A stretch of 39,809 nucleotides of DNA. It comes from Candidatus Thermoflexus sinensis. Lineage in GTDB: Bacteria > Chloroflexota > Anaerolineae > Thermoflexales > Thermoflexaceae. Within the stretch, counting starts at the first letter, position 1. Every line of letters starts with the position of its first letter. The stretch spans positions 1-39,809 of the forward strand of contig JAEVEY010000125.1 in assembly GCA_016842045.1 (NCBI GenBank), read 5' to 3'. Position numbers and translations under genes: made by a program. Shown piece by piece: positions 5,737-36,766 of this stretch. The notes under the pieces are model-generated. The model worked only from the letters and a program-made list of their open reading frames with translations, searched no databases and was not told the DNA's origin.

Positions 5737-5816
5737 CTACGAGCGAAAAGCCCTTTGTTCGTAGTAGGGCACGAAGCAAAGCGGAGTGCCCGTTATACCT
5801 GCTCAAAAAGAACGGG
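5737..5816. repeat. Family C repeat unit that includes the end of trpE
   Basis: On the plus strand this reads like the complement of the second unit at 2316-2422: an AAAGCCCTTTGTTCGTAGT block, GGGCACG, GCGGAGTGCCCGT, then a run ending AAAAAGAACGGG. About 80 bp align with few differences. Positions 5793-5816 are also the last codons and stop of trpE, so the repeat supplies or has replaced the trpE 3' end. Confidence 0.75.
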
Positions 5817-18574: not shown

Positions 18575-18823
18575 GCATAAGATCGGAGATTTTCTCCATG
18601 AGATGAAATGCCTGCTGGACACCCCCCGATACAGGGATTTCAGGCCGTGCTGAGGATCTCTGGGGCAAGACCACAGCCAGAACGAACGCAGGGCCTGTTG
18701 CCTTGTTTCGATGGAAAGGCTTTCAGGGGTAAATTGAAGGTTTGGGGGTGGACGAGGTCGCCAGAGGTGGCCCCGCCCACTCCCAAAGCCCTGGATAAGA
18801 GGGGTCGGCGAATTTGTCCAGAG

Positions 18824-18978
18824 TGCTCCCTCCAGATTTGATTTTTGGTTTTGGTCCCCTGGAATCTCTTTTCTCCCCCCTCCCCACGGCCCAAGGGGCC
18901 GTGGGGAGGGGGGAGAAAGGGGGGTGGGGCCATTGGCCCACACCCTCTTATATCCTCAAAACAAATCTGGACGAAGCA
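18824..18978. mobile_element. MITE family B, copy 1
   Basis: This 155 bp element has terminal inverted repeats TGCTCCCTCCAGATTTG (18824-18840) and CAAATCTGGACGAAGCA (18962-18978). A 4-bp direct repeat AGAG flanks each end (18820-18823 and 18979-18982), as expected for a target-site duplication. The interior has a long C-run/G-run palindrome around GGGGCCGTGGGGAGG. A matching copy in the other orientation is at 24181-24336. It has no coding capacity, so any transposase would act from elsewhere. Confidence 0.85.
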
Positions 18979-23823: not shown

Positions 23824-24698
23824 TCGCGATCCTCCAGCCCTCACGGCTTTGTAGCCATCTCGGGCTTCGGACAGCCGGATTCCGGTAGCGATCGCCAGCT
23901 GCCTCTCCTCTTATGCGCTGCCAGGCGGCGCAGGGAGGGAGGAACATCTCCACCGCCCTTCAATCGAACCGAGTCCTGAGCGCCGGAGATGGAAGGGCGA
24001 CCTTCGGCCGTGGATATATTTTAGACTCGCCGTGTGATCCCGAGACGGATCGTCTCGCCTTCCCTCATCCCTCCTCTCTCTGGCCCTTCCCATCACCAGG
24101 AGGAGTTCTCTGTTGTAAACAGGGGTTGTCGTCCCAGCTCATAGTGATAACCCTTTGATTCCACGGCGAGTCTATTCTACTGCTTCGTTCAGATTTGTTT
24201 TGAGGATATAAGAGGGTGTGGGCCGATGGCCCTACCCCCCTTTCTCCCCCCTCCCCACGGCCCAAAGGGCCGTTGGGGAGGGGGGAGAAAAGAGATTCCA
24301 GGGGACCAAAACCAAAAATCAAATCTGGAGGAAGCACTACAAAGGATGGCAAACGCGGGTTGCAAATTGCGCCAGGCTTTTGCCGCCGATTCTCATCGAG
24401 GGGAGCCACCCGACCTCCGGACTTCCTCCTGGACCCATCGGATCGAGCCGGCATGGTGGATTTGCGACAGTATACAAATGGAACGGGTGGAGGGATTCCC
24501 TGAGAGGTAAGAGACATGTGAAGAGCGGATCATGTCTGACGGTTGATCCAGGCAGAAGGCCCCCACGGGAGCAAAAGCGGGCATTCTCATTCTCCCTCCG
24601 GAGATGGGGGGGCCAGCTCCATACAACTTCTTACCAGCACCCAGGAGGGAGGCCACCGAACGCTCAGATGAAAAAGCCCTGCCTCCCAGGTGCCACAG
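23824..24698. other. Gene-poor region with one MITE
   Basis: About 875 bp with no supported gene. A family B element lies at 24181-24336. The remaining DNA (23824-24180 and 24337-24698) shows stop-rich frames and no recognised RNA. A short string near 24662-24686 (CTCAGATGAAAAAGCCCTG) recurs with one inserted base at 26537-26556, just beyond coaE. Confidence 0.6.
24181..24336. mobile_element. MITE family B, copy 2 (inverse orientation)
   Basis: 156 bp with the same ends as the copy at 18824 but reversed. The left end is TGCTTCGTTCAGATTTG and the right end CAAATCTGGAGGAAGCA. A 4-bp direct repeat CTAC lies on each side (24177-24180 and 24337-24340). The internal C-run palindrome around GGCCCAAAGGGCC is the same as in copy 1. 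No coding capacity. Confidence 0.85.
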
Positions 24699-24925: not shown

Positions 24926-24930
24926 GTTTT
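24905..24930 (+). terminator. 3' end of 6S RNA followed by a T-run
   Basis: The GC-rich closing stem CATGGCGGGGC is followed by TTTTTGTTTT (24921-24930), as in a factor-independent terminator or a processed 3' end. A family A repeat begins directly at the end of the T-run. Confidence 0.6.
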
Positions 24931-25061
24931 AGGAGTTACGCAGTTTGGGGCTCGCAAGAAGAGGTAGAATGGCCCCACCCCCTATTTTGGGGGGAATCGC
25001 GCGCCGAAGGCGCGCGATTCCCCCCAAAACCCCCAGGAGAAAACCAACTGCGTAACTCCTA
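24930..25061. mobile_element. MITE family A, copy 2
   Basis: A 132 bp element bounded by TAGGAGTTACGCAG and its complement CTGCGTAACTCCTA. The centre has the GCGCGCCGAAGGCGCGC hairpin between G and C runs. It inserts right after the 6S RNA T-run and 6S signals remain intact. Confidence 0.85.
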
Positions 25062-27283: not shown

Positions 27284-27471
27284 TAGGACTTACGCAGTTG
27301 ACCTCTGACCAAGGGGAGTTGAGGGGCCCCTCCCCCCTTTATCCCCCCTCCCCGCAGCCCGAAGGGCTGCGGGGAGGGGGGAAGAATTATTTTTGGGGGC
27401 TGAGGCGGGCGCCGAAGGCGCCCGCCTCAGCCCCCAAAACCCGAGGAAGAGGGCCAACTGCGTAACTCCTA
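27284..27471. mobile_element. MITE family A, copy 3
   Basis: 188 bp between TAGGACTTACGCAG and CTGCGTAACTCCTA. A candidate 5-bp target duplication TTACA flanks it (27279-27283 and 27472-27476). The centre has two nested palindromes: a CCCCGCAGCCCGAAGG-type arm and a GGCGCCGAAGGCGCC arm. Confidence 0.8.
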
Positions 27472-27478
27472 TTACATT

Positions 27479-27743
27479 TAGGAGTTACACAGTTGGGTCT
27501 CTCCTGTTCCATCGAAGGCTGGAGGGGTAGGGTCCTTCCACCTCTTCTAACGGACCCCGAACGGCGTAACGTCCAACACGGCATCATGATAACCCAATCA
27601 AGGCCGGGCCGAAGGTCCCTAACAGGGCTTTTCAACTCCTGGGGGTTTGGGGGAGTTGCGCGCCGAAGGCGCGCGACTTCCCCAAAAATAGGGGGTGGGG
27701 CCATTCTACCTCTTCTCGCGAGCCCCGAACTGCGTAACTCCTA
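27479..27743. mobile_element. Composite family A element, copy 4
   Basis: 265 bp between TAGGAGTTACACAG and CTGCGTAACTCCTA. An internal GAACGGCGTAACGTCC at about 27556-27571 looks like a decayed right end, so this is probably one element joined to a second that has lost its left end. The second part (about 27630-27743) has the same core hairpin and right end as copies 1 and 2. Confidence 0.7.
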
Positions 27744-31866: not shown

Positions 31867-32393
31867 GGGCACGAATGCACGAATGGGCCTGTTCACCTGA
31901 ACGGACGCCTGAGGGTCTCAGCTCCATGGCGCTGTCACTCACCGGGCAGCGGAGGGAAAGGGGCCGTTCCATTGTAGGGCACAGCTGACCCCGCATCGCT
32001 ATCGCACGGGATTTCCCATTTAGGAGTTACGCAATTGAAAGCTCTAAAGGTGGAACGGAATGGCCCCACCCCCCTTTCTCCCCCCTCCCCACGGCCCAAA
32101 GGGCCGTAGGGAGGGGGGAGAAAAATCCTTGCCCCCATGGGAAACGAACTGCGTAAGTCCTACTATTGTTGAACCAGGGGGAAATCAGCGGCAGATCTTC
32201 CCACCAGGTGGGATAAGCCGGTGAAAGGTCGTGGCCTTCTGTGCGGGGCGGTCTCTTCTTCACCGGGCTTTTCTTCCCTGAAGCTCTTCTGGCCTTTGGG
32301 GAGGGTGACATTGTGTTGCTCCGGAAGCGCGCCGCAGGGCGCAGCGAAACGCGGATCCCCGCTCCTCAGCTGGAGAAGAATCCCTACCGGTAG
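31867..32393. other. Intergenic region between the Mo-subunit gene and priA
   Basis: No gene is supported in these 527 bp. A family A element (32021-32162) is the only clear feature. The 31867-32020 and 32163-32393 parts show no recognised RNA and no convincing promoter. Confidence 0.6.
32021..32162. mobile_element. MITE family A, copy 5 (142 bp subtype)
   Basis: Bounded by TAGGAGTTACGCAATT and AACTGCGTAAGTCCTA. The interior has GAAAGCTCTAAAGG, then a C-run/G-run palindrome around GGCCCAAAGGGCC and the unpaired tail ATCCTTGCCCCCATGG. It is almost the same sequence as the copy at 34995-35136 on the other side of priA. Confidence 0.88.
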
Positions 32394-34970
32394 ATGGCGA
32401 TGGCCCTGGAGATCGCTGTCCTGGCTGCCGGCGCAGCTTATGCCGGCGGTGTGTTCACCTATGAGGAGCCGGAGGGGCTGGATGGTCATCTCCGCCCCGG
32501 GCACCTCGTGCTGGTGCCGTTCGGACGAAGCGGGCGGCCCGAGCCGGGGATCGTGTTGCGCCGGATCGCCGGAAAGGGCCCCGTTCGTCTCCAGAAGGGG
32601 GACCAGATGGAGAGGGGCCGCGCCCGGAAAGCGGTGCTGCGCTGCCTGGAGGAGGACCCCGTCCTGGATCCCCTGCGTCTGGAGTGGGCTGCCTGGCTCA
32701 GCCGGACTTACCTGGCCCCGATCAATGAATGCCTCCGCCTGATGATCCCATCTGGCCTGATCCCCCGTCGGGAGCCAACCTATGAGCGGGTCTCCGGCCC
32801 CTCGGGCGGTGGATTGGAGCAGGCGGTGGCGGTCTCGTTCGCGGAACAGGTCCTGCTCGCCGCCCTGACGGAAGGACCGCTGACCCACAGCGAGGTGCAG
32901 GCCATCCTGCGGGATTTCCCCCTGACTGAACGGCGACGAGCGCTCCAGCGTTTGCTCCAGCGGGGGTGGATCCGGCGGGGCTGGCGGATTGGGGAACGCC
33001 GTCTTCCGACCCTTCGCTGGGTCCGATTGAAAACCCTGCCGGATCCGACCTTCCGCCTGGGGCGAAGCCGGGCGGTGATCGAGCGGCGGCGACGGCTGTT
33101 AGAGCGCCTCCAGGTGACCGCGCGGCCATTGCCAGCTGACTGGCTGCAGGCAGAGACCGGTTGCCGCCCTCACGATCTGCAGCAGCTGGCCCGCTGGGGC
33201 TTCCTGGAACTTTTTGAGCAGCCGGCATGGGAGACGGTGGATCCTTACCCGGTGCCCGAGGAGCCGCCTAACCTGACGCCGGATCAGGCAATCGCCTGGC
33301 GGTCGATCGCCCGAGCCCTGGAGACCGGCCGGTTCCATGCCTTCCTGCTCCACGGAATCACCGGCAGTGGGAAGACGGAGCTCTACCTGCGGGCGGTGGC
33401 CGAGACCCTGCGCCGGGGGAAGGGAGCCATCGTCCTGGTGCCGGAGCTGGCGCTTACCCCCCAGACCGCCCGCCGCTTCGAAGCTCGCTTCCCGGGCCAG
33501 GTCATCGTCTGGACCGGTGGGATGTCCCCCGCTCAGGAACGGGCCCTGTGGGAACGGGTGCGTCGTCGTCAGGCCCGGGTGATCGTGGGCACCCGCTCCG
33601 CCCTTTTCGTCCCAATGCCGGACCTGGGGTTGATCGTCATCGATGAAGCTCATGATCCGAGCTATAAGCAGGATATCCTGCCCCAGATCCCCTATCTCCT
33701 GCCCGCGTACCACGCCGTGGATGCGGCTCTGGCCCTGGCCCGCCTGGCGGAGGCGGTGGTCATTCTGGGCACCGCGACCCCGGGGGTGGAGCTGCGCTAT
33801 CTGGCGGAGCGGGGCGCGCTGGAGGAGCTGAGTCTCCCCCGTCGCCTGCGAGGGTATCGCCAGCGGCTGATGGAGCAGGCCCGACAGTTTGGGGCCTCCC
33901 TTGATCGGTTTGTGGAAGTGGAGGCGGAGGCCCTGGAGAGCGGCCTGCCCTCGGTTGAAGTTGTGGATATGCGGCAGGAGCTGAAAGCCGGGAACACCGG
34001 GATCTTCAGCCGGGCGCTGGAGAAGGCCCTGGATCAGGTGCTCCGTCGCGGACAGCAGGCGATCCTGTTCCTGAACCGCCGGGGGGCCGCGCCCTTCCTG
34101 TTCTGCCGGGATTGCGGCCATTTGCTCCGATGCGCCCGCTGTGATCTTCCCCTCGCCGAACACCACCATCCCACCCGTTGGGTCTGTCACCACTGCGGGG
34201 CGGTGGAGAAACCCGTCGCCCGCTGCCCTCGATGCGGGTCGCGGCGGATTAAAGGCATGGGCATTGGCACGCAGGCGGTGGAAGAGGCCGTGCGGAAGCG
34301 CTGGCCAGAAGCCCGCGTGTTGCGCTGGGATCTGGATACCGCCCCTACCCGGGCTGCTCATACGCTCATCTGGCAGCGCTTTGCCGAGGGGGAAGCCGAT
34401 GTCCTGATCGGGACCCAGGTGCTGACCAAGGGGCTGGATCTTCCTCTGGTGACCCTGGTCGGGGTGATCCTGGCCGACGTCGGGCTGGGGTTGCCGGATT
34501 TCCGGGCCGCCGAGCGGACGTTCCAGTTGCTGGTCCAGGTGGCGGGCCGGGCGGGACGAGGGCTTTTCGGGGGGCGGGTGATCCTCCAGACCTATCGGCC
34601 AGACCATCCAGCCATTGCCGCAGCGGCGCGTTATGATTTAGAATCGTTCTATCGCAAGGAACTGGCCTTCCGGAAGGCGCACGGATACCCTCCCTTCCAG
34701 CGCCTGGTTCGTCTGCTCTACTGGCATGCGGATCCGGATCGAGCCCAGGAGGCGGCGGAACGGATGGGGGAGGCGCTGCGTCATCACCTGGAACGCAAAG
34801 GCGCTCCTCCAACTGCGATGATCGGCCCGGCCCCGTGCTACTTCAGCCGCCTGCGAGGACTTTACCGGTGGCAGATCCTCCTTCGAGGGCCGGACCCGGC
34901 GGCCTGGCTTCGGGATTTCCCGCTGCCGCCGGACTGGCGGGTGGATGTGGATCCTCTGGATGTCCTGTGA
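32394..34970 (+). CDS. priA: Primosomal protein N' (helicase PriA)
   Basis: PriA is the replication-restart helicase that recognises stalled forks and loads the replisome. The 858 residues start with the 3'-DNA-binding domain (about 1-100), then a winged-helix region. The helicase core has Walker A LLHGITGSGKTELYL, Walker B IVIDEAHDPSYKQ (DEAH instead of the more usual DEEH) and VILGTATPG. The zinc region has four CxxC pairs (CRDC, CARC, CHHC and CPRC), and the C-terminal helicase half has GTQVLTKGLDLPLVTLVGVI and RTFQLLVQVAGRAGRG. All core parts are present. No strong ribosome site is visible before the ATG, and an ATG two codons on is also possible. Confidence 0.95.
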   Translation: MAMALEIAVLAAGAAYAGGVFTYEEPEGLDGHLRPGHLVLVPFGRSGRPEPGIVLRRIAGKGPVRLQKGDQMERGRARKAVLRCLEEDPVLDPLRLEWAAWLSRTYLAPINECLRLMIPSGLIPRREPTYERVSGPSGGGLEQAVAVSFAEQVLLAALTEGPLTHSEVQAILRDFPLTERRRALQRLLQRGWIRRGWRIGERRLPTLRWVRLKTLPDPTFRLGRSRAVIERRRRLLERLQVTARPLPADWLQAETGCRPHDLQQLARWGFLELFEQPAWETVDPYPVPEEPPNLTPDQAIAWRSIARALETGRFHAFLLHGITGSGKTELYLRAVAETLRRGKGAIVLVPELALTPQTARRFEARFPGQVIVWTGGMSPAQERALWERVRRRQARVIVGTRSALFVPMPDLGLIVIDEAHDPSYKQDILPQIPYLLPAYHAVDAALALARLAEAVVILGTATPGVELRYLAERGALEELSLPRRLRGYRQRLMEQARQFGASLDRFVEVEAEALESGLPSVEVVDMRQELKAGNTGIFSRALEKALDQVLRRGQQAILFLNRRGAAPFLFCRDCGHLLRCARCDLPLAEHHHPTRWVCHHCGAVEKPVARCPRCGSRRIKGMGIGTQAVEEAVRKRWPEARVLRWDLDTAPTRAAHTLIWQRFAEGEADVLIGTQVLTKGLDLPLVTLVGVILADVGLGLPDFRAAERTFQLLVQVAGRAGRGLFGGRVILQTYRPDHPAIAAAARYDLESFYRKELAFRKAHGYPPFQRLVRLLYWHADPDRAQEAAERMGEALRHHLERKGAPPTAMIGPAPCYFSRLRGLYRWQILLRGPDPAAWLRDFPLPPDWRVDVDPLDVL

Positions 34971-34994
34971 GGGCGCGCCCGGTTTCTTTTCGGG

Positions 34995-35136
34995 TAGGAG
35001 TTACGCAGTTGAAAGCTCTAAAGGTGGAACGGAATGGCCCCACCTCCCTTTCTCCCCCTTCCCCACGGCCCTTTGGGCCGTGGGGAAGGGGGAGAAAAAT
35101 CCTTGCCCCCATGGGAAACGAACTGCGTAAGTCCTA
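34995..35136. mobile_element. MITE family A, copy 6 (142 bp subtype)
   Basis: Bounded by TAGGAGTTACGCAGTT and AACTGCGTAAGTCCTA. It matches copy 5 over the full 142 bp with few substitutions, and the centre of its palindrome reads CTTT instead of AAAG, as if flipped. The two similar copies flank priA. Confidence 0.88.
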
Positions 35137-35143
35137 TTCGGAA

Positions 35144-35225
35144 TAGACGTTACGCGGTTGACCTTCTCCCTCGAGTTTCCGGGCTGGGAGGGGGCGCCGA
35201 AGGTGCCCCTCCCAGCCCGGAAATC
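35144..35225. repeat. Decayed family A element
   Basis: The left end TAGACGTTACGCGGTTGACC resembles the family A end. The core hairpin has arms GGGCTGGGAGGGG and CCCCTCCCAGCCC. No right terminal repeat is visible. Confidence 0.6.
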
Positions 35226-35365: not shown

Positions 35366-36766
35366 ATGCCCAGGGCCTCTGCATCCCGCAAACGTTACCA
35401 TCTGATCACGCTGGGCTGCGCGAAGAACGCGGTCGATTCCGTCAGCATGGCTCAGCTGCTGGAGGGGGCCGGGTATGAATCCGTGGATCGCCCGGCCCGA
35501 GCGGATGTGCTCATTGTGAACACCTGTGGTTTCATCGAAGCGGCCCGGCAGGAATCCCTTCAGGCGCTGCGGGAACTGGCCGCGCGGAAGAAGAAAGGGC
35601 AACTGCTCATCGCCGCCGGATGCCTCGCCCAGCGGTGGGGAGCCCGCCTGGTGGAAGAGGTGCCCGGGATTGACGGCGTGATCGGCACCCGGCGATGGAT
35701 GGATATCCTGGAGTTTATCGAGCGGCTGCGGGGGCGCATGGGTCCGGAGCCCCTCTTCCACATTCCGGAGAATGGGCCGATCCGACGAGAGGAGCGTGGG
35801 GTGCTGCGAGCCGCGGTTCAGGGGGTCAGCGCCTATCTGAAGATCGCCGATGGCTGCCGCCGCCCATGTGCGTTCTGTGCCATCCCCCTCATCAAAGGGC
35901 CTGCCGTCAGCCGTCCGCCGGAGGTCATCTGGGCGGAAGCCCGTCGCCTGGTCGATCAGGGGGTTCGAGAGCTGATCCTGATCGCCCAGGACACCACGGA
36001 TTACGGCCACGATCTGGGGATGCGGGATGGGCTGCCCACCCTGATTGAGGGCCTGGTACAGCGGGTCCCGGAGGTGAAGTGGATCCGCATCATGTATGCC
36101 TATCCCGGCGCCGTCTCCGATCGTCTGATCGAGGTGATGGCCCGCTATCCCCAGGTGGCGCATTACCTGGATCTGCCGCTACAGCATGGCCATCCTGCGG
36201 TGCTGCGTCGGATGCGTCGCCCAGCAAACATCGAGTGGGTCTATCGCACCATCGAAAAGCTGCGGAAGGCCATGCCCGATATCGCCATCCGCACCACCTT
36301 CATTGTGGGCTATCCGGGGGAGACCGAGGAGGAATTCGAGGCATTGCTCCGGTTCATCCGGGATCTGGAGTTTGACCGCGTTGGATGCTTCACCTATTCG
36401 TATGAGCCGGAGACGCCCTCGGCCCGGCAGCCCGGTCATCTCCCGGAGGAAGTCAAACGGGAGCGCTACGAGCAGCTGATGGCGGTCCAGCAGCCGATCT
36501 CCCTGCGCAAGAACCAGGCGCTGGTCGGGAAGACCCTGGAGGTGCTGATCGAAGGGGCTGGGGATGGGTTGAGCGTGGGACGGACCTATCGGGATGCCCC
36601 GGAGATCGATGGGCTGGTGCTGGTGGAGGGGGAGTGGCCGGTGGGCCAGTTCCTCCCGGTGCGCATGACCGGGGCGATGACGTATGACCTCGTTGGCGTG
36701 GTGGAAACGTCCTCGCCCCAGGAAGGGGCCCCTGTTCGCCTCTCCAGGCAGCCCTCCAGGCCCTAA
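35366..36766 (+). CDS. rimO: Ribosomal protein S12 methylthiotransferase RimO
   Basis: RimO is a radical SAM enzyme that methylthiolates an Asp of ribosomal protein S12. The 466 residues have an N-terminal methylthiotransferase domain with ITLGCAKNAVDS (C18), NTCGF (C54) and AAGCLAQR (C86) for the auxiliary 4Fe-4S cluster, then radical SAM CxxxCxxC in DGCRRPCAFCAIP (C164, C168, C171), and a TRAM-type C-terminal domain (about 395-455). The N-terminal LGCAKNAVDS form and the CAIP after the cluster favour RimO over MiaB. The start is the first ATG of the frame, 8 bp after a GAGCGTG stretch with no strong Shine-Dalgarno. Confidence 0.93.
   Translation: MPRASASRKRYHLITLGCAKNAVDSVSMAQLLEGAGYESVDRPARADVLIVNTCGFIEAARQESLQALRELAARKKKGQLLIAAGCLAQRWGARLVEEVPGIDGVIGTRRWMDILEFIERLRGRMGPEPLFHIPENGPIRREERGVLRAAVQGVSAYLKIADGCRRPCAFCAIPLIKGPAVSRPPEVIWAEARRLVDQGVRELILIAQDTTDYGHDLGMRDGLPTLIEGLVQRVPEVKWIRIMYAYPGAVSDRLIEVMARYPQVAHYLDLPLQHGHPAVLRRMRRPANIEWVYRTIEKLRKAMPDIAIRTTFIVGYPGETEEEFEALLRFIRDLEFDRVGCFTYSYEPETPSARQPGHLPEEVKRERYEQLMAVQQPISLRKNQALVGKTLEVLIEGAGDGLSVGRTYRDAPEIDGLVLVEGEWPVGQFLPVRMTGAMTYDLVGVVETSSPQEGAPVRLSRQPSRP

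Follow-up and report, generated by a model that had tools for sequence, protein, structure and literature searches.

How do two nearly identical short elements, placed on either side of one gene, come to carry the centre of their hairpin in opposite orientations? The question is raised by a 39,809-nt stretch of Candidatus Thermoflexus sinensis (contig JAEVEY010000125.1 of assembly GCA_016842045.1, positions 1 to 39,809 of the forward strand; hereafter the window), in which two copies of a 142-bp element flank priA, the palindrome of one having the loop AAA and that of the other TTT (Table 1). As the best explanation of this locus we consider it probable that both copies are miniature inverted-repeat transposable elements (MITEs), each of which inserted on its own, and that the loops of their palindromes are turned over neutrally through template switching.

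An earlier reading of this DNA from its letters alone (the sequence-only reading) had described near-identical 142-bp elements at 32021 and 34995, arranged as direct repeats around priA, and this description holds: the copies agree at 134 of 142 bases (94%) and lie on the same strand, a direct orientation that is by itself a one-in-two chance. They differ at element positions 14, 51, 65, 78, 79, 80, 88 and 93. Positions 78-80 form the loop, while positions 65 and 93 are palindrome partners that changed jointly, C/G to T/A, so that five of the eight differences come down to a loop inversion plus one matched arm pair; the remaining three are single changes. The centre had been given as AAAG in one copy and CTTT in the other. 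The flip is real, but those four bases are the 3-nt loop plus one base of the arm. Folded as single-stranded DNA, the hairpins of copies 1 and 2 reach z values of -6.1 and -9.9.

The same two loop states recur throughout the 3.44-Mb genome that contains the window (G000; the other G numbers denote further genomes of its genus, eight in all). A pattern with orientation fixed by the bases outside the left arm, in which copies lying in other repeat families are included, found 70 perfect-arm palindromes in G000, namely 34 AAA, 31 TTT, 2 CAA and one each of GAA, CTT and TTA, and 25 in G007 (10 AAA, 11 TTT, 3 TTG and 1 GTT). Both priA copies are absent from the 70 because their arms differ from the consensus. 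Base-by-base change from AAA to TTT would make mixed A/T triplets common, and the single TTA among 70 therefore supports inversion of the loop.

The evidence that bears most directly on the flip comes from insertions common to two genomes. From 102 palindromes, all in fetched stretches (60 in G000, 39 in G007 and 3 in G008), pairing by contig position yielded 13 such insertions, 11 between G000 and G007 and two between G008 and G007. The loop is reversed in 8 of the 11 readable sites (contig pairs C39/C220, C69/C339, C136/C258, C104/C317, C122/C174, C191/C277, C71 of G008 with C241, and, with noisy arms, C173/C201) and unchanged in three (C92/C537, C175/C230 and the second site of G008 C71/C241). 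The pairs C157/C243, where TTT became TTG, and C121/C543, which is noisy and unreadable at a contig end, were not scored, nor was a further pair beyond the 13, C83/C555, with a run of N in the loop. The elements at C104/C317 and at C69/C339 differ in nothing but the three loop bases. Of 22 aligned stretches around shared sites, 14 are 97-99.7% identical and the others 82-96%. Opposite loops at the same insertion site in close genomes mean that the loop turns in place, after insertion, and on these draft assemblies it would seem to turn faster than point mutation. Contig C71 of G008 (locus L148) is itself 97.5% identical to C241 of G007 over 11.4 kb, with few copies elsewhere in G008, a likeness that may reflect recent transfer or a binning error.

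It could be argued that an AAA and a TTT subfamily each arose once and spread by transposition, the priA copies descending from different subfamilies; both states are indeed common and transposition is evident. We hold this to be very improbable, for opposite loops stand within the same insertion, between the same flanks, at the eight sites given above, and the loop state shows no linkage to a nearby A/G site (Fisher p 0.38 for 46 elements of G000 and 0.65 for 20 of G007). The sequence-only reading had left the choice between inversion of the loop and independent insertion of sister copies: the shared sites speak for the former, and the sister insertions, though real, do not explain the flip.

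Whether hairpins in general behave in this way was assessed in a scan of 84,941 aligned columns, which gave 48 hairpins with identical contexts counted once; it undercounts MITE copies, and the per-site figures are those of the shared insertions. With arms of at least 14 bp, six were reversed, one was the same and two were classed as other (n = 9, all of them the MITE palindrome); with arms of 11-13 bp, the counts were 2, 6 and 1 (n = 9), and with arms of 8-10 bp, 0, 28 and 2 (n = 30). The Fisher comparison of the longest with the shortest class excluded the category "other". Two of the reversed hairpins lie outside the MITE family, one of 28 bases with 13-bp arms, in which TC became GA between 45 identical bases on each side, and one of 24 bases with 11-bp arms, in which GA became TC. 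Away from hairpins, 2 of 45,305 2-nt windows were exactly reversed, and among 60,648 3-nt windows there was none in which every base had changed. Furthermore, the same non-consensus sequence stands in both arms of 4 of 98 copies, copy 2 of the window among them, against 0.18 expected (1 of 10,000 shuffles reached 4). Both the reversal in longer-armed but not in short-armed hairpins and the excess of matched arm changes over chance are observed within the limits of draft assemblies.

These features fit a process in which the nascent strand, on reaching the palindrome, would jump from one arm to the other, use the other strand as template for the loop and then return, so that the 3-nt loop would be replaced by its reverse complement; the same switch could make one arm match the other. 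Long arms (23 bp) around a short loop would account for the high frequency of switching, and, if it is frequent relative to point mutation, loop orientation would settle near 1:1 both within a genome and between close relatives. The marks of template switching that we find are an exactly reverse-complemented loop with unchanged arms, long arms, and homogenisation of the arms, although most arm changes are unmatched. We infer that replication, rather than for instance cutting and rejoining of a cruciform, is the source of the switch, and the rate and neutrality of the flip are likewise deduced.

An enzyme might also invert the loop in place, either by cruciform extrusion with cutting and rejoining by a resolvase or through a site-specific recombinase; the palindromes can fold strongly, as their z values indicate, and the outcome would be identical. 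Such an origin appears distinctly unlikely to us, since hairpins unrelated to the MITE show reversal too, the matched arm changes suggest that one arm served as template for the other, and a classical invertase needs a segment longer than 3 nt. Absence of SbcCD as the cause of palindrome tolerance was also considered and rejected, a match to SbcD being present in 8 of the 9 genomes.

Several points weigh against template switching. Above 13 bp, an effect of arm length cannot be told apart from one of belonging to the MITE family, and most arm changes are unmatched: among 102 copies, both arms are consensus in 55, one arm is changed in 32, both are changed differently in 11 and both alike in 4, in a classification by fixed offsets that counts indels as changes. 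The genomes carrying the family are drafts, so the loop state of any given copy rests on draft assemblies, and in G007 coverages are 2.5-3.2, contigs stop at the hairpin, several copies have runs of errors in their arms and one loop is a gap of 10 N. An assembler could have taken the loop of one copy from another, and the reversals that escape this objection are the two short hairpins only. Put at its strongest, the objection says that both states are real but that short-read assemblers mis-assigned them among the 142-bp repeats, which would make shared sites look reversed, and the lack of linkage between the loop and its neighbouring site agrees with it. We nevertheless consider such an artefact unlikely. 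A read is much longer than either of the two hairpins outside the family; assembler words longer than the arm should not create a reversed state; the 34:31 mixture within G000 alone requires both states to be real; copy swapping does not produce matched arm changes; and reversal is graded by arm length (6/9, 2/9 and 0/30) while background windows are almost never reversed.

Seven relatives of the MITE with 8-9-bp arms, picked by eye, leave the question of an artefact undecided: six keep a single orientation (L207, L208, L211, L265, L270 and L273), and L256 seems to be reversed, with another of its bases changed too. In L213 and L239 (10-bp arms, both from one Desulfobacteraceae metagenome-assembled genome), which were left out of this comparison, the interior looks inverted relative to the ends, far beyond the loop. 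In Escherichia coli, the reversed forms of four K-12 hairpins with 11-13-bp arms were sought in 5,426 complete genomes. One was found reversed, full-length and exact, in a single genome (NZ_CP145714.1) of the 3,659 with any match, the ranking placing 101 other matches of at least 99% as shorter; the other three reversed forms occurred in 0 of 3,968, 5,370 and 5,375 matching genomes. Loop reversal thus occurs in a finished bacterial genome, but it is rare in E. coli at these arm lengths, which also counts against template switching as a frequent process.

That the two copies are non-autonomous MITEs of a widespread kind is clear from the family as a whole, which is short, has paired terminal inverted repeats, lacks a transposase gene, makes target-site duplications and is present in high copy number. 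When up to 3 mismatches are allowed, the window contains the 16-bp end 12 times where 0.21 occurrences would be expected, and 0 of 100 shuffles reached 12. G000 holds 55 elements with exact paired ends 90-120 bases apart (0 for the backward-pattern control), and exact single ends number 134 forward and 149 reverse. Among 88 distinct elements extracted from fetched loci, where sites common to two genomes are counted twice, 59 are bordered by exact duplications of 5-9 bp (37 of 5 bp, 11 of 6 bp, 10 of 7 bp and one of 9 bp, with none of 4 bp), and 1.9% of shuffled flank pairs reached 4 bp. The window copies have no exact flank duplication, a decayed one being seen at copy 2 and none clear at copy 1. 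The family, its ends, its target duplications, the separate insertions and the reversed loops at shared sites are all observations within the bounds of draft assembly.

Of 396 genomes belonging to the class, 10 contain elements with such paired ends, G000, G007 and G008 included; among the matches listed, such elements also occur in records titled Chloroflexi/Chloroflexota, Anaerolineae, Acidobacteria, Planctomycetaceae, Desulfobacteraceae, Beggiatoa and methanogenic archaea. The element had no match in Rfam at the gathering score, and G002, which alone in the genus consists of one contig, had no element match, no exact end pair and no perfect-arm palindrome. The loci L202-L281, from many phyla including archaea, are MITE-like with the same inner ends and mostly unrelated interiors; their ends may represent one sequence recognised by a very widespread IS701 group.

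The ends also suggest the source of mobility. ISMesi2 of Allomeiothermus silvanus carries both of them, exact over the 14 bases searched plus TA, the shared ends being TAGGAGTTACGCAGTT / TAGGACTTACGCAGTT; it belongs to the IS701 family and has a 7-bp flank duplication at the one copy read, and a relative of its transposase is present in the genus. Among the PF01609 loci of the genus, an autonomous-type element was found in G008 (L177), 1.1 kb long, with the same ends on both sides of an IS701 transposase and no clear flank duplication. Its 308-aa protein is an IS701-family transposase (NF049921, 377 bits), 82.5% identical to that of ISMesi2. Unlike ISMesi2 and IS701, the window MITEs are 142 bp long, without a transposase gene and with GC-rich palindromes as their interior, and the family's target duplications are mostly of 5-7 bp, whereas IS701 itself makes 4-bp duplications; the 4-bp duplication expected of an IS701 derivative was not found. 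The one DDE_Tnp_1 match of G000 adjoins a MITE but is not bounded by MITE ends, none of the 20 stretches inspected beside unpaired ends in G000 held an end-bounded transposase, and in L173 and L183 a different transposase gene adjoins a MITE. An ISMesi2-like transposase of the IS701 family would then move the MITEs, each copy having inserted independently beside priA.

When copy 1 was compared directly with the 21 loci that surround priA and rimO in the seven relatives having a priA match, no copy was found, the sole match being a palindrome fragment at a contig end of G005, away from the site. In G008, 16 bases separate the end of priA from sequence that matches the start region of rimO, and other sequence of 162, 27 and 126 bases stands there in G003, G005 and G006. 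Copies 1 and 2 are separate insertions: the seven relatives have neither. The suggestion of the sequence-only reading that recombination between the repeats might delete or loop out priA found no support, and such a recombination cassette seems scarcely credible to us. The same orientation and 94% identity would favour it, as would the closest relative, G007 (580 contigs, 87% complete), in which no priA was found above the cut-off; but priA is present in 8 of the 9 genomes of the genus, that is, in G000 and 7 of the other 8, and those seven have neither copy. In G007, neither priA flank had a match among the matches listed, which makes an assembly gap likelier than deletion between repeats.

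Table 1. Features of the window discussed in the text (positions count from the first base of the window).
Feature	Position	Strand	Remarks
MITE copy 1, left of priA	32021..32162	+	ends TAGGAGTTACGCAATT / AACTGCGTAAGTCCTA
Palindrome of copy 1	32075..32123	+	23-bp arms (32075-32097/32101-32123), one arm mismatch; loop AAA (32098-32100)
priA (primosomal protein N'), between the copies	32394..34970	+	NCBIfam TIGR00595, 526 bits against a cut-off of 230
MITE copy 2, between priA and rimO	34995..35136	+	ends TAGGAGTTACGCAGTT / AACTGCGTAAGTCCTA; imperfect flank duplication TTCGGG/TTCGGA
Palindrome of copy 2	35049..35097	+	perfect 23-bp arms (35049-35071/35075-35097), no mismatch; loop TTT (35072-35074); compared with copy 1, one arm pair changed jointly from C/G to T/A
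rimO, downstream of copy 2	35366..36766	+	NCBIfam TIGR01125, 458 bits against a cut-off of 357
Element with the same 16-bp ends	24930..25061	+	different palindrome core, GCGCGCCGAAGGCGCGC
Element with the same ends	27284..27471	+	two palindromes in tandem
265-bp stretch between two of the same ends in facing orientation	27479..27743	+	further palindrome inside
Second-family repeat	24181..24338	+	ends CCAGATTTG-like .. CAAATCTGG; carries the same palindrome
Second-family repeat, second copy	18815..18978	-	same palindrome, loop CTT

Other repeats of the window deserve a brief account. Directly after copy 2, at 35144-35159, lies a decayed single end of the same kind with 3 mismatches, and after it a further palindrome; together they may be what is left of an old element beside copy 2. 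The palindrome of the priA copies, or one much like it, and also a second core, occur within families of quite different ends, such as the second-family repeats of the window and loci L025, L031, L036 and L042; the end types that host them include CCAGATTTG-like..CAAATCTGG and, in G005, GCTTTGTCCAGTTATC... Judging from these arrangements, it is as if hairpin cassettes had been exchanged between MITE families. One end of the second family is present in 18 exact copies in G000. Palindrome cores of the GGCGCCGAAGGCGCC type, with the loop GAA, stand at 2465-2510, 24985-25030, 27393-27438 and 27644-27689, and among elements with IS701-type ends in G000 both GAA and TTC loops occur. An inverted repeat pair of another type, 53 nt long and 92% complementary, is found 3.3 kb apart at 2360-2412 and 5745-5797.

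What does such a family offer? Template-switch inversions are normally caught singly, and here at least 70 perfect-arm copies in one genome provide parallel copies, from which strand and position effects could be measured in a wild bacterium with long reads. We see about as much for as against the view that these long-arm palindromes, at least 70 in number, constitute a natural, replicated template-switch reporter, with loops that flip far faster than mutation and are already randomised between genomes whose flanks are a few per cent apart, and with a cassette that seems to pass between MITE families. If that is true, loop states could provide a very fast clock in this genome, or could show how strand and position affect switching. 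An AAA/TTT difference represents one event rather than three substitutions, and is therefore unfit for phylogeny or strain tracking. In literature searches on MITEs in Chloroflexi, IS701 MITEs, Thermoflexus transposable elements, bacterial loop or spacer inversion, microinversions and loop-inverting MITEs, the phenomenon was absent among the matches listed.

Among known systems, spacer inversion by template switching has been described in yeast where the arms exceed 9 bp, some of the examples being of 3 bp (PMC8604942), and hairpin loop inversions in rRNA, bacteria included (PMC8794818). The likeness to the present case lies in a short spacer that is turned into its exact reverse complement while the arms stay as they were, in the advantage of longer arms, and further in reversibility and matched arm changes. 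Unlike those cases, a high-copy bacterial MITE is concerned here, and it seems to be close to equilibrium at sites where the flanks are for the most part 1-3% apart. Small inversions in plastids (PMC6824564) involve hairpin loops whose orientation changes again and again among closely related species and which make poor phylogenetic markers; they share with the MITE palindromes the flipping of loops between close relatives and look like the same phenomenon, although they are scattered single loci and ours a dispersed repeat family. The Correia elements of Neisseria, as cited in PMC10969869, are MITEs that invert as whole elements, whereas here only the 3-nt loop turns. The MITE family and the flip process are thus each of a known kind, and their combination at this frequency is of specialist interest.

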